Positions 53,128 to 57,150 of a stretch of 64,000 bases of DNA are shown one piece after another. The position numbers and the translations under genes are program-made. This DNA comes from Nitrososphaerota archaeon (lineage in GTDB: Archaea; Thermoproteota; Nitrososphaeria; Nitrososphaerales; Nitrosopumilaceae). Every line of letters starts with the position of its first letter. The first letter of the stretch is position 1. The DNA lies in NCBI GenBank assembly GCA_016872055.1, contig VHBH01000005.1:1-64000 (forward strand), read 5' to 3'. The notes under the pieces are model-generated. The model did no database searches, was not told the origin of the DNA, and worked only from the letters and a program-made list of their open reading frames with translations.

Positions 53128-53778
53128 CTACTCATAAGTAGAGGAGCTTGATTGGGACGAAAGTCCAGATGGTGAAGGAACAGATGGGAATCTGTCGCCA
53201 ATTTGCTGTTCAGCAACCGCTGATGCTTCTTGTAAGATCTTTTCGGTTTCTTCGCTTGAAACGTCAGATCCGACATTGAATGCATCGCCTGCCAGTGAGT
53301 CCATCATCAGACCGCTGAGTGTTTGTGTCATAGAGTTTAGCTCTGCGTCTGCTTCTGGCATAAAGCGTCCTAGTGAGGACTTGAGGCCCTTCATTGTCGA
53401 CATTGCTGGACCTATTGCTACCATTGCATCACCCAAGTCATGGATGGTGGTCAGGCGCAACTGTACTTGCTCTAGTGCCATTCTTGCATTGCCTAGCATC
53501 TTTGTGACTTTACGAATTTCAGCTAGTTCGTTTGATAAGACACGACTTGCGCTGGTGTCATGCTGTTGCATTGCAGCTACGATTCGTTTGAATAGTTGAG
53601 CGTCACGTTCGTGCAATTTGTTTAACATTGAATCCATTTTTGAGATTTGTAATTGCAGTTTGTTGACTGCAGTTTGAATTCTTGGTTTCAATGCGCCCTG
53701 TGGTTTAACAGAGTCTCGAAGTCTGTCTGCCACACTTGCAGTGTCCTGACGTGCCCAATTTTTCTCGAAGCCGGTCAT
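53128..53778 (-). CDS. cdvB: CdvB (ESCRT-III/Snf7-like) cell division protein
   Basis: 216 aa. The N-terminal two-thirds is a helical ESCRT-III core: long amphipathic helices with RIQTAVNKLQLQISKMDSMLNKL and LRLTTIHDLGDAMVAIGPAMSTMKGLK. It has an acidic distal part (VSSEETEKILQEASAVAE) and a Pro/Ser-rich tail (DRFPSVPSPSGLSSQ) that may act as a MIM2-like CdvC-binding site. Thaumarchaea have several CdvB paralogues; which one this is cannot be decided. Confidence 0.92.
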   Translation of the reverse strand: MTGFEKNWARQDTASVADRLRDSVKPQGALKPRIQTAVNKLQLQISKMDSMLNKLHERDAQLFKRIVAAMQQHDTSASRVLSNELAEIRKVTKMLGNARMALEQVQLRLTTIHDLGDAMVAIGPAMSTMKGLKSSLGRFMPEADAELNSMTQTLSGLMMDSLAGDAFNVGSDVSSEETEKILQEASAVAEQQIGDRFPSVPSPSGLSSQSSSSTYE

Positions 53779-53884
53779 GAACCACCGTTTTGGATTTTCT
53801 TCTTAATGGAATTAGTGCATTTTAGTGAGCTAGGTACTAAATTTAGCTAACAAACTGTAAATTGGGTTTTTTCAAAATCCAACT

Positions 53885-54637
53885 ATGGCAAGAATTGTAG
53901 TTTTTGATTCGGGTCTTGGATCACTATCCATCATAAAATCAATTCAGAAATTTACCAAATCGGAAATAATCTATTTCGCAGACCAAAAAAATTTTCCATA
54001 CGGGACTAAAACCAAAACCGAATTAAAAAAAATAATAGATAACACAATCAACAAACTGGAAAAGAAATTTCATCCAAATGTGATCATAATGGCATCAAAC
54101 ACACCGTCAGTGTTGTTTCCAGAATACTTGGACTCTGAAATAATCGGTGTGTTGCCACCAATTAAAAAATCTGTGTCACTTACAAAAACTGGAACAATCG
54201 GAATTCTTACAACAAAAATAGCTACAAAAAGTAAAGAACTCTCAGAATACGTTAGGAAATCATCTCATAACACATATGTAAAAAAAATTGATGCAACAAA
54301 ACTGATAAAACTTGTAGAGACTGGAAAATTCCTAACAAATCCAGATTATTGTGAAAAAGTTATACTAGATGTTCTTGAAGACAAAATTAAAAGAAACAAA
54401 ATTGACGTAATCACATTATCAAGCACGCATTTGCCGTTTTTACTGCCAATGTTAGAAAGAAGATTCCCATCTGTCAAGTTTGTAGATCCCGCCGACGACA
54501 TTGCAAAGACCATCGCAAGAAGAATAAAAAAATCCCCCCGTAACAAACTACGAATCTACACTTCAGCAGATGCAAGATTATTCCAAAAACATTTACAGAA
54601 AATCGGAATTAAAAATACTGTTAATTTTTTACCTTAG
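53885..54637 (+). CDS. Glutamate racemase-like (Asp/Glu racemase superfamily) protein lacking both catalytic cysteines
   Basis: 250 aa, typical MurI length. It begins RIVVFDSGLGSLSIIKSI, keeping the family Asp-Ser (D8, S9), and has FPYG at 37-40. The first catalytic block is MASNTPS (family form A-C-N-T-A-S), with Ser71 for Cys. The second is LSSTHLP (family form G-C-T-H-Y-P), with Ser180 for Cys. Archaea of this group have no peptidoglycan, so a glutamate racemase role is doubtful. It may bind an amino or dicarboxylic acid without racemising it. Ends inside the opposing cbiF end (17-nt overlap). Confidence 0.85.
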   Translation: MARIVVFDSGLGSLSIIKSIQKFTKSEIIYFADQKNFPYGTKTKTELKKIIDNTINKLEKKFHPNVIIMASNTPSVLFPEYLDSEIIGVLPPIKKSVSLTKTGTIGILTTKIATKSKELSEYVRKSSHNTYVKKIDATKLIKLVETGKFLTNPDYCEKVILDVLEDKIKRNKIDVITLSSTHLPFLLPMLERRFPSVKFVDPADDIAKTIARRIKKSPRNKLRIYTSADARLFQKHLQKIGIKNTVNFLP

Positions 54638-55388
54638 CTTTTCTATATCCATGACTAAATGTCTTGTCATATAGTTTGGAATATTCATACGACTTAGGCT
54701 TTATGACATCACCAATTATAACAATTGCAGTTCGCGTAATTTTTTGCGCCCAGACTTTCTTGGATATGTCTTCTAGTGTTCCGGTGATGATTTTTTGGTC
54801 CGGCCAGCTTGCCCTATATACAACGGCCACAGGCGTAGTTTTTGGGTATCCGCCCTTAATTGCCTCCTTCACAATGTCAGATAGTAGGTGTACACTAAGA
54901 TAGAAAATCATTGTAGATTTGTGCTTGGCCAATTCAGAAATTTGCTCTTCCTTGGGAACCTTGGTGCGCTTTTCTGCACGTGTTATAATCATAGTTTGAG
55001 TAACTCCAGGCAACGTCAACTGTAATCCCAATGCAGCAGATGAAGCCAAAAACGACGTAACACCTGGAACCACAACACATTCTATTCCTTCTTTTTCCAG
55101 ATTGTCTGTCTGTTCACGAATGGCACCATAAATTGCAGGATCACCATCGTGAAGTCGTATTGTAAGTTTTTTTTGGGCGACGCCTTGCTTAAGGATCTCA
55201 AATATTTCTTCTCGTACTAGGCCAGCCGCATCATACATCTTTGCCTTTTTGCAAATCTTTAGTATTTCATTTGGAATCAAAGAACCAGAATACACCACAA
55301 CGCCCGCTTTTTGTAGTAATTTTTTTGCCTTGACTGTTATGAGATCAGGATCGCCAGGACCACACCCAACAAAGTAAACCCTAGACAC
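54621..55388 (-). CDS. cbiF: Cobalt-precorrin-4 (C11)-methyltransferase CbiF
   Basis: 255 aa with a GTG start. SAM-dependent tetrapyrrole methylase with VYFVGCGPGDPDLITVKAKKLL, IRLHDGDPAIYGA, ECVVVPGVTSFLASSAALG and the family segment MIITRAEKRTKVP. It overlaps cbiL by 8 nt. Adds the C11 methyl in corrin synthesis. Confidence 0.95.
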   Translation of the reverse strand: MSRVYFVGCGPGDPDLITVKAKKLLQKAGVVVYSGSLIPNEILKICKKAKMYDAAGLVREEIFEILKQGVAQKKLTIRLHDGDPAIYGAIREQTDNLEKEGIECVVVPGVTSFLASSAALGLQLTLPGVTQTMIITRAEKRTKVPKEEQISELAKHKSTMIFYLSVHLLSDIVKEAIKGGYPKTTPVAVVYRASWPDQKIITGTLEDISKKVWAQKITRTAIVIIGDVIKPKSYEYSKLYDKTFSHGYRKAKVKN

Positions 55389-56103
55389 GCTTTACCACCA
55401 TTATGGAAAAATATTTCGTAGTCATTGTATTTTCGTTTACCTCACCCAGCGTCATTTTGCGGACAATCTCATTTGACGTACCCAAATCTTGGCCTATTGC
55501 AAATATGGAATTATCAGAAAAGCCGGCTTCCTTAAGCAATTTTATGACCTGATCAAAATAGCGGCCGTCTTTGAGAAATATCATAGTGTCACAGTTTCTT
55601 GCTGTCTCTTTTACCCGCGACAGATCATAACAAGATGGGATTACTGCCATGGTCTCTGCGCCCTCTGCCAAGCTTATTCCTACCTTTGATGCAAATGTAA
55701 ACATCGATACTATTCCAGGAATGACGTTGATCTTGATGTTCGGATATTTTGTCTGCAATTCTCGATGTAGATATATCCATGTGCTGTACAGGTACGGGTC
55801 GCCCACTGTCAGGTATACTACCTTTTTTCCCTCCATTACTTTATTGGCTAAAATTTTCGTGTTTTTCTCCCATGTTGTTTCCAGTGTGTCTTTGTCCTTT
55901 ACCATTGGAAAGACCAAGTTCACTATTTCCGGCATTTTTGATTTGTCCAATAACGATTCTACCACGGAAAGAGCAATACTTGGCTTGTCCTCTTTTGCCG
56001 TAGGACATGCAATGATTTGTGCGTCTTGAATTGCCTTTACTCCCTTGACTGTAAGCAGCTCTGGATCGCCAGGCCCGCACCCAACACAAATCAAATCATG
56101 CAT
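55381..56103 (-). CDS. cbiL: Cobalt-precorrin-2 (C20)-methyltransferase CbiL
   Basis: 240 aa. LICVGCGPGDPELLTVKGVKAI, YLTVGDPYLYSTWIYLH and INVIPGIVSMFTFASKVGISLAEG match CbiL (the S-T-W/Y-x-Y-L/V-H segment is specific). Methylates C20, the first committed methylation after sirohydrochlorin. Second cobalamin gene of the operon cbiT-cbiL-cbiF. Confidence 0.95.
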   Translation of the reverse strand: MHDLICVGCGPGDPELLTVKGVKAIQDAQIIACPTAKEDKPSIALSVVESLLDKSKMPEIVNLVFPMVKDKDTLETTWEKNTKILANKVMEGKKVVYLTVGDPYLYSTWIYLHRELQTKYPNIKINVIPGIVSMFTFASKVGISLAEGAETMAVIPSCYDLSRVKETARNCDTMIFLKDGRYFDQVIKLLKEAGFSDNSIFAIGQDLGTSNEIVRKMTLGEVNENTMTTKYFSIMVVKRV

Positions 56104-56138
56104 GTAAGACCAAAAAATTTTCCTAGTTAAAAGCGAAT

Positions 56139-56729
56139 CTAGGTCTTTGTTGCAGAAATTATTGTCACCGGATTTCTTGCAAGCATCATTGTTCCAGTAC
56201 TAGTCTTTTTGCTTTTGGATATGGTGATCTGTGTAATATCAACATCAGTAAATTCAAGCTTGTATATTACATCCAGTACAGCATACAAAGTTTCAATCAG
56301 TATTACACCAATTACTACTCTTGCGCCAGACTTTAGTTTATCATTGCACAGTGTTACAATATCTTTGGTATCACCTCCTGTACCGCCAATGAAAATCGCA
56401 TCAGCTAATGGCAGTTCCGGGATTTTCTGCTTAGCATCAGATAGTATAAGCTCCACATTTGTGATTCCGAATTTTTCTAGGTTTTTTCGTGTAAGATCTA
56501 TTGCATTTTTGTCAATGTCTATCCCGTAAATTTTGCCAGACTTTCCTATTTGTATGCCGGCCTCTACTGTTATGGACCCACTACCGCACCCAATGTCATA
56601 GACAGTATCTCCCTCTGATAGACGTGCCTTACTGATCTGTATTGCGCGCACCTCTTCTTTTGTTATTGGGACGTCCTCTGTTCTAAAAAATTCCTCGTCA
56701 GGTATTCCGGGTGTCTTGTGGTTCCACAT
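56139..56729 (-). CDS. cbiT: Cobalt-precorrin-6B C15-methyltransferase (decarboxylating) CbiT
   Basis: About 196 aa from ATG 56729; an in-frame Met at 56819 lies inside the upstream gene. N-terminus WNHKTPGIPDEEFFR with PITKEEVRAI is the CbiT hallmark, then the SAM-binding motif VYDIGCGSGSITVEAGIQI and DAIFIGGTGGD. It methylates C15 and decarboxylates the C12 side chain. No CbiE is fused or adjacent. One base separates it from the EMC6-like gene. Confidence 0.95.
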   Translation of the reverse strand: MWNHKTPGIPDEEFFRTEDVPITKEEVRAIQISKARLSEGDTVYDIGCGSGSITVEAGIQIGKSGKIYGIDIDKNAIDLTRKNLEKFGITNVELILSDAKQKIPELPLADAIFIGGTGGDTKDIVTLCNDKLKSGARVVIGVILIETLYAVLDVIYKLEFTDVDITQITISKSKKTSTGTMMLARNPVTIISATKT

Positions 56730-56730
56730 A

Positions 56731-57150
56731 TTAAATTGGGTTAAGCGGGGCAGTGCCAGTTCCCGGCAGGTGTACCAGTGTGTACGATAAAATCCACATG
56801 AACAAGTACAAGAACACATACGTTCCGATTCCTGTCGTTACTAGTTTTTTTCTGTCAGATGAGGGTAGTCCTATCTTCATACTTTTGCCAATAACAGCAG
56901 ATGCGATAAACACTATAATCATAAATCCAATTGAGGCCCATCTTCGCTCCTCGCCATCTATAGAGTCGAACAGAAACGTTGCAATCACGCCGCCAATTGC
57001 AGCCATCCCTATTCGTATCCAGAATAATTTGTCCAATAGTTTTTTGCGCCTATCAAGCTCGTCCTGACTGTCTGTCGGAGGTACGACCTCTGGGGCTTTG
57101 TCATCAGCAGGATCCGACGGATTTGGGGATTTCTTTTTTGGATGCTTCAA
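56731..57150 (-). CDS. EMC6-like archaeal small membrane protein
   Basis: About 139 aa from TTG 57150; an ATG at 57234 gives 167 aa but sits only 3 bases from the divergent NFACT start. After a basic, Pro/Asp-rich cytosolic N-terminus there are three hydrophobic segments (WIRIGMAAIGGVIATFLF, IGFMIIVFIASAVIG, TTGIGTYVFLYLFMWILSYTL). Pattern and length resemble the archaeal EMC6-like family, linked to membrane-protein insertion. Start and family are both tentative. It heads the cbiT-cbiL-cbiF operon. Confidence 0.65.
   Translation of the reverse strand: MKHPKKKSPNPSDPADDKAPEVVPPTDSQDELDRRKKLLDKLFWIRIGMAAIGGVIATFLFDSIDGEERRWASIGFMIIVFIASAVIGKSMKIGLPSSDRKKLVTTGIGTYVFLYLFMWILSYTLVHLPGTGTAPLNPI

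Follow-up and report, generated by a model that had tools for sequence, protein, structure and literature searches.

Gene and active-site residues at the locus

Within the window, the 64,000-nucleotide stretch of DNA analysed here, an intact open reading frame on the forward strand runs from an ATG at position 53885 to a stop at 54637. It encodes a 250-residue protein related to glutamate racemase (MurI), with serine at both positions of the catalytic cysteines. The gene, its neighbours and its active-site features are listed below (AOA, ammonia-oxidising archaea).

53128..53778, reverse strand: divergent upstream neighbour, CdvB/ESCRT-III-like (named from sequence)
53885..54637, forward strand: Ser/Ser glutamate-racemase-like protein, 250 aa (open reading frame, profile matches, AlphaFold2 model, PDB fold matches)
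53903..53923, forward strand: FDSGLGS block, residues 7-13, with D8 (the kept MurI Asp), S9 and S13 (alignment)
53996..54004, forward strand: P38-Y39-G40 block of the racemase family (invariant in alignments)
54095..54097, forward strand: S71 codon TCA, first catalytic Cys position (TCN in 105 AOA sequences)
54317..54319, forward strand: E145 codon GAG, kept from MurI (invariant in Ser/Ser and Cys/Cys rows)
54422..54424, forward strand: S180 codon AGC, second catalytic Cys position (AGY in 105 AOA sequences)
54428..54430, forward strand: H182 codon CAT, the kept MurI His (invariant in alignments)
54621..55388, reverse strand: convergent downstream neighbour, CbiF-like cobalamin methyltransferase (named from sequence)

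Both full-length sequence similarity and the predicted fold place the protein with MurI. Its match to the glutamate racemase profile TIGR00067 (2e-37, 128.9 bits) lies under the curated score cut-off of 146.65 bits, which is passed by orthologues of AOA family f3 and missed by bacterial Ser/Ser homologues. The gathering score of Pfam PF01177 (Asp_Glu_race) is narrowly passed (32 bits versus 31), and the window's own genome yielded no further PF01177 member. An AlphaFold2 model computed from 28 orthologues has a mean pLDDT of 92.1; all of its first 48 fold matches in the PDB are glutamate racemases. Compared with MurI/RacE (TIGR00067, EC 5.1.1.3; PDB 2gzm, 1zuw, 3ist), the predicted fold is the same along the whole chain, with a TM score of 0.90 to 2gzm.

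MurI works by a two-thiol 1,1-proton transfer (PMC8142540). When the window protein was aligned to solved MurIs, S71 (in ASNTPS) fell on the Cys of 'ACNTA' and S180 (in SSTHLP) on the Cys of 'GCTHYP', confirming the initial annotation of a MurI-like protein that has lost both members of the acid/base pair. Cysteine occupies both columns in 15/15 Cys-type homologues, to which identity is 21-27%. The blocks described as kept, D8/S9, PYG and THLP, are present as D8/S9, P38-Y39-G40 and T181-H182-L183-P184, and D8, PYG, E145, T181 and H182 are invariant in the alignments, so that the accessory active-site Asp, Glu and His are retained. Besides the two catalytic positions, the Ser/Ser protein differs from MurI/RacE in having Leu/Ile for the Tyr/Phe after Thr-His and Ser for Gly at position 13 (Gly in 15/15 Cys-type homologues). 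S13, S71 and S180 are the three invariant residues that split the Ser/Ser from the Cys/Cys set.

Across 25 diverse Ser/Ser rows only 18 columns are invariant, among them S71, S180, D8, E145 and H182. Some motif positions next to these do vary: N72 is Ile or Val in families f2 and f67 and in part of f3, and two bacterial Ser/Ser homologues have Ala in place of S9 and T73. A further cysteine, C156 (window 54350-54352), is kept in most orthologues from Nitrosopumilaceae and lies on the helix that follows the segment with E145; it is unlikely to be a replacement catalytic cysteine, since other families than f1 do not keep it.

Distribution and descent of the Ser/Ser form

Ammonia-oxidising archaea are among the most abundant organisms of sea and soils. 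All 105 distinct AOA orthologues whose sequences were read, from four sampled families (79 from f1, 18 from f3, 6 from f2 and 2 from f67), carry Ser/Ser. This answers the question raised in the initial annotation, whether the pair is fixed, and rules out both a sequencing error and a local variant among Cys-Cys homologues. S71 is always encoded by TCN and S180 always by AGY, each one base away from a Cys codon, and in none of the 105 sequences has either site moved from one serine codon set to the other. As judged from codons, this constancy agrees with a single Cys-to-Ser change per site that predates the split of the AOA families and has been kept since.

A contig search returned 33 loci, nearly all titled Nitrososphaerota (Thaumarchaeota). 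Within the phylum, a profile search covering 398 genomes gave matches in 71. Apart from two distant matches outside the window's order, a marginal one in G024 and a Cys/Cys MurI in G160, all belong to that order and to its families f1, f2 and f3. The G160 gene (L075, 5884-6687, reverse strand) encodes a genuine MurI with both cysteines, in a genome of the phylum that does not belong to an AOA. Since such a gene was seen in only 2/21 genomes of the order of G160, it was likely gained horizontally.

Searching 121 genomes of the window's order added the fourth AOA family, f67. The racemase-like gene was present in 53/121 (including a contig-end fragment in G465 and a degraded copy in G483) and archaeal amoA (PF12942) in 55/121; 52 genomes had both, 3 amoA only, 1 the racemase-like gene only and 65 neither. 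The co-occurrence gives a Fisher p of 2e-29, in a test that is not independent of kinship. Because the genomes are related, the association describes a clade and does not independently argue for a functional tie.

In sampled close pairs the gene is under purifying selection (omega 0.12-0.20 in 9/10 pairs), which together with the intact reading frame rules out a decaying gene at this locus. G102 encodes the Ser/Ser form, and some AOA carry copies broken or split by stops or frame changes (L080, L081, L079, L082, L159). No match to the gene was found in G283, G180, G287 and G307. As several AOA genomes, a few of them in f1, have lost the gene or carry broken copies, it is dispensable. The Ser/Ser clade was probably present in the AOA common ancestor, kept by most lineages and lost by a few. 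Genomes with broken or missing copies offer a ready-made panel in which to look for genes lost together with the racemase-like gene.

The Ser/Ser form also occurs in bacteria. A protein search of plasmid records matched 17, of which those of Phyllobacterium zundukense and Fusobacterium vincentii had the highest identity and lowest E-values and were both Ser/Ser; the remaining sequences read were Cys/Cys.

L172:5989-6771 (Phyllobacterium zundukense) and L173, about 1467-2259 (Fusobacterium vincentii), forward strand: bacterial Ser/Ser homologues (FDAG and ASNAPS motifs)

These two proteins (WP_262291953.1 and the product of the Fusobacterium vincentii pSB055A gene) are previously unstudied. They share Ser/Ser, S13 and SSTHLP with the AOA proteins and differ in having FDAG and ASNAPS where AOA have FDSG and ASN/ITPS, at 33-36% identity. 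No informative neighbours of the two genes were found. In Fusobacterium vincentii a canonical Cys/Cys MurI (219 bits) is encoded in the same replicon as the Ser/Ser protein (97 bits), which makes the latter unlikely as the cell-wall racemase.

In a maximum-likelihood tree all 25 Ser/Ser rows lie on one side of one branch (100/99), apart from 15 Cys/Cys MurIs; the branch is less firm (82/80) with two motif regions left out. On the monophyly of AOA relative to the two bacterial sequences, the tree test decides neither way (p-AU 0.38). A scan of viral contigs with alignment A3 found no relatives. The bacterial homologues rule out a retooling restricted to archaea. The initial annotation had tied the Ser/Ser change to an archaeon lacking peptidoglycan. 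That the host lacks it agrees with the window's own genome, rated 98.8% complete, in which no Mur ligase (Mur_ligase_M, PF08245) was found, so a supply of D-glutamate to Mur ligases does not apply there. The wider link stands only in part: the pair is fixed in AOA, but two bacteria have it too.

Gene neighbourhood

The convergent CbiF-like gene overlaps the 3' end of the racemase-like gene by 17 bp. Window positions 53128-56819 hold the divergent CdvB-like gene and, convergent with the racemase-like gene, a set of cobalamin genes (CbiF, CbiL, CbiT-like). The divergent CdvB-like/racemase-like pair is usual in f1, f2 and f67, with cobalamin-pathway genes nearby, and is missing from most f3 genomes. 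The CdvB and cobalamin block itself is common to distant AOA families; in f2 the cobalamin genes lie on the other side of CdvB. Because the pairing sits in this broader conserved block and is lost in most of f3, we do not read it as a sign of function.

In several Nitrososphaeraceae, some f3 genera, the next gene after the racemase-like one, in the same orientation, is HyuA/oxoprolinase-like and encodes about 720 aa (L066, L068-L070, L169, L171). PF01968 is absent from the window's genome, from the listed f2 and f67 genomes and from others that keep the racemase-like gene. A functional operon is ruled out, as no partner gene is consistent across genomes. The CdvB-like, cobalamin and HyuA-like neighbours are context, and none is claimed as a functional partner.

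Possible functions of the Ser/Ser protein

With both thiols gone, ordinary racemisation appears unlikely from the sequence. In HisR, a two-cysteine racemase of another fold class, single Cys-to-Ser mutants lose most activity (PMC11602996). Nevertheless, strict retention of both serines, D8, E145 and H182, together with purifying selection in the sampled pairs, argues that the pocket still does something. The reading we favour, and to which we give about an even chance, is that the protein belongs to a Ser/Ser clade of its own within the glutamate-racemase family and is an enzyme that has abandoned two-thiol racemisation. A retooled function, as the initial annotation proposed, is thus better supported by the fixed serine pair, the crippled or redirected catalysis that follows single Cys changes in relatives and the MurI alongside in Fusobacterium; each of the roles it listed (binding protein, isomerase, lyase or regulator) is a candidate.

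If the protein is still an enzyme, its substrate would be a small molecule, a carboxylate or something resembling an amino acid, bound in the interdomain cleft, where a conserved Asp8/Ser71 side and a Ser180/His182 side would hold and polarise it. Proton transfer would fall to Asp8 or His182 and not to a thiolate; these base roles are drawn from MurI by analogy. The reaction would presumably be easier than removal of the alpha-proton from glutamate, and candidates are a one-sided elimination, a hydrolysis or, with a more acidic substrate, a tautomerisation or isomerisation. More tentatively, and on balance improbable as we see it, the clade may form a separate enzyme class in the racemase fold, in nearly all AOA and scattered bacteria, pairing the serines with Asp/His in a reaction new to the superfamily.

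The strict conservation of the serines fits equally well a ligand-binding pseudoenzyme, and this counts against the reading we favour. Such a protein would bind glutamate or a related dicarboxylate without turnover and serve as a sensor, buffer or regulator. That both racemisation thiols are gone everywhere while D8, PYG, E145, T181 and H182 remain invariant would suit it, and an accessory role agrees with gene loss in some lineages. On the other hand, a dead scaffold is disfavoured because both serines are invariant where drift to Ala, Gly or Thr would be expected. Nearby motif residues that should matter for binding glutamate, N72, S9 and T73, do vary, which argues against an unchanged glutamate site, and the protein has neither an attached regulatory domain nor a conserved partner gene. 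Since the serines never vary and adjoining pocket-motif residues do, the sequences lead us to prefer an enzyme with a changed reaction, and we regard the pseudoenzyme as unlikely, though with an appreciable chance of being correct.

Less probable still is a slow or one-way amino-acid racemase based on serine, which would let AOA use D-glutamate as proposed in PMC12363236. The protein shares its fold and most of its pocket residues with MurI, gene presence tracks AOA, and natural single Cys-to-Thr changes in relatives have given one-way racemases or a dehydratase (PMC8142540), so that one thiol can be lost with activity kept in one direction. Here, however, both thiols are replaced, a change of Cys to Ser severely weakens a related two-cysteine racemase (PMC11602996), and none of the 105 sequences bears out the published claim of the necessary catalytic sites. 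We give very little credence to an elimination in which N-hydroxyglutamate or a similar compound, arising from the hydroxylamine of ammonia oxidation, would yield 2-oxoglutarate and ammonia. MurI itself removes water from N-hydroxyglutamate (PMC8142540) and the racemase-like gene tracks amoA, but the idea is purely conjectural, the bacterial Ser/Ser hosts are not known as ammonia oxidisers, and descent explains the clade pattern equally well.

The same protein family is treated in a 2025 paper (PMC12363236) as the AOA 'GLUR' (K01776) of Nitrosopumilus maritimus and relatives. The AOA-wide distribution given there agrees with ours. The paper describes the protein as a glutamate racemase possessing 'the necessary catalytic active sites', whereas all orthologues read here lack both Cys. 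Our alignment contradicts this intact-active-site reading at the sequence level, as no sequence read carries the catalytic Cys pair, and a working racemase appears doubtful on the same grounds. The AOA copies are counted as glutamate racemase (K01776), account for 32-72% of the genes so counted in samples of deep-sea sediment and serve as an argument for an AOA role in D-glutamate cycling (PMC12363236). If the protein is not a racemase, the inference of AOA D-glutamate cycling falls, and a nearly AOA-universal conserved protein needs a function.

Replacement of a catalytic cysteine has natural precedents in the superfamily. The aspartate/glutamate racemases EcL-DER and MMP0739 have one Cys changed to Thr and are one-way racemases (PMC8142540), whereas here both Cys are changed to Ser. 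Arylmalonate decarboxylase (AMDase, G74/C188; PMC12576825) is likewise a member retooled via the Cys pair; it keeps one catalytic Cys, and the Ser/Ser protein keeps none. The Ser/Ser clade is a natural test of serine replacing cysteine in the racemase family.
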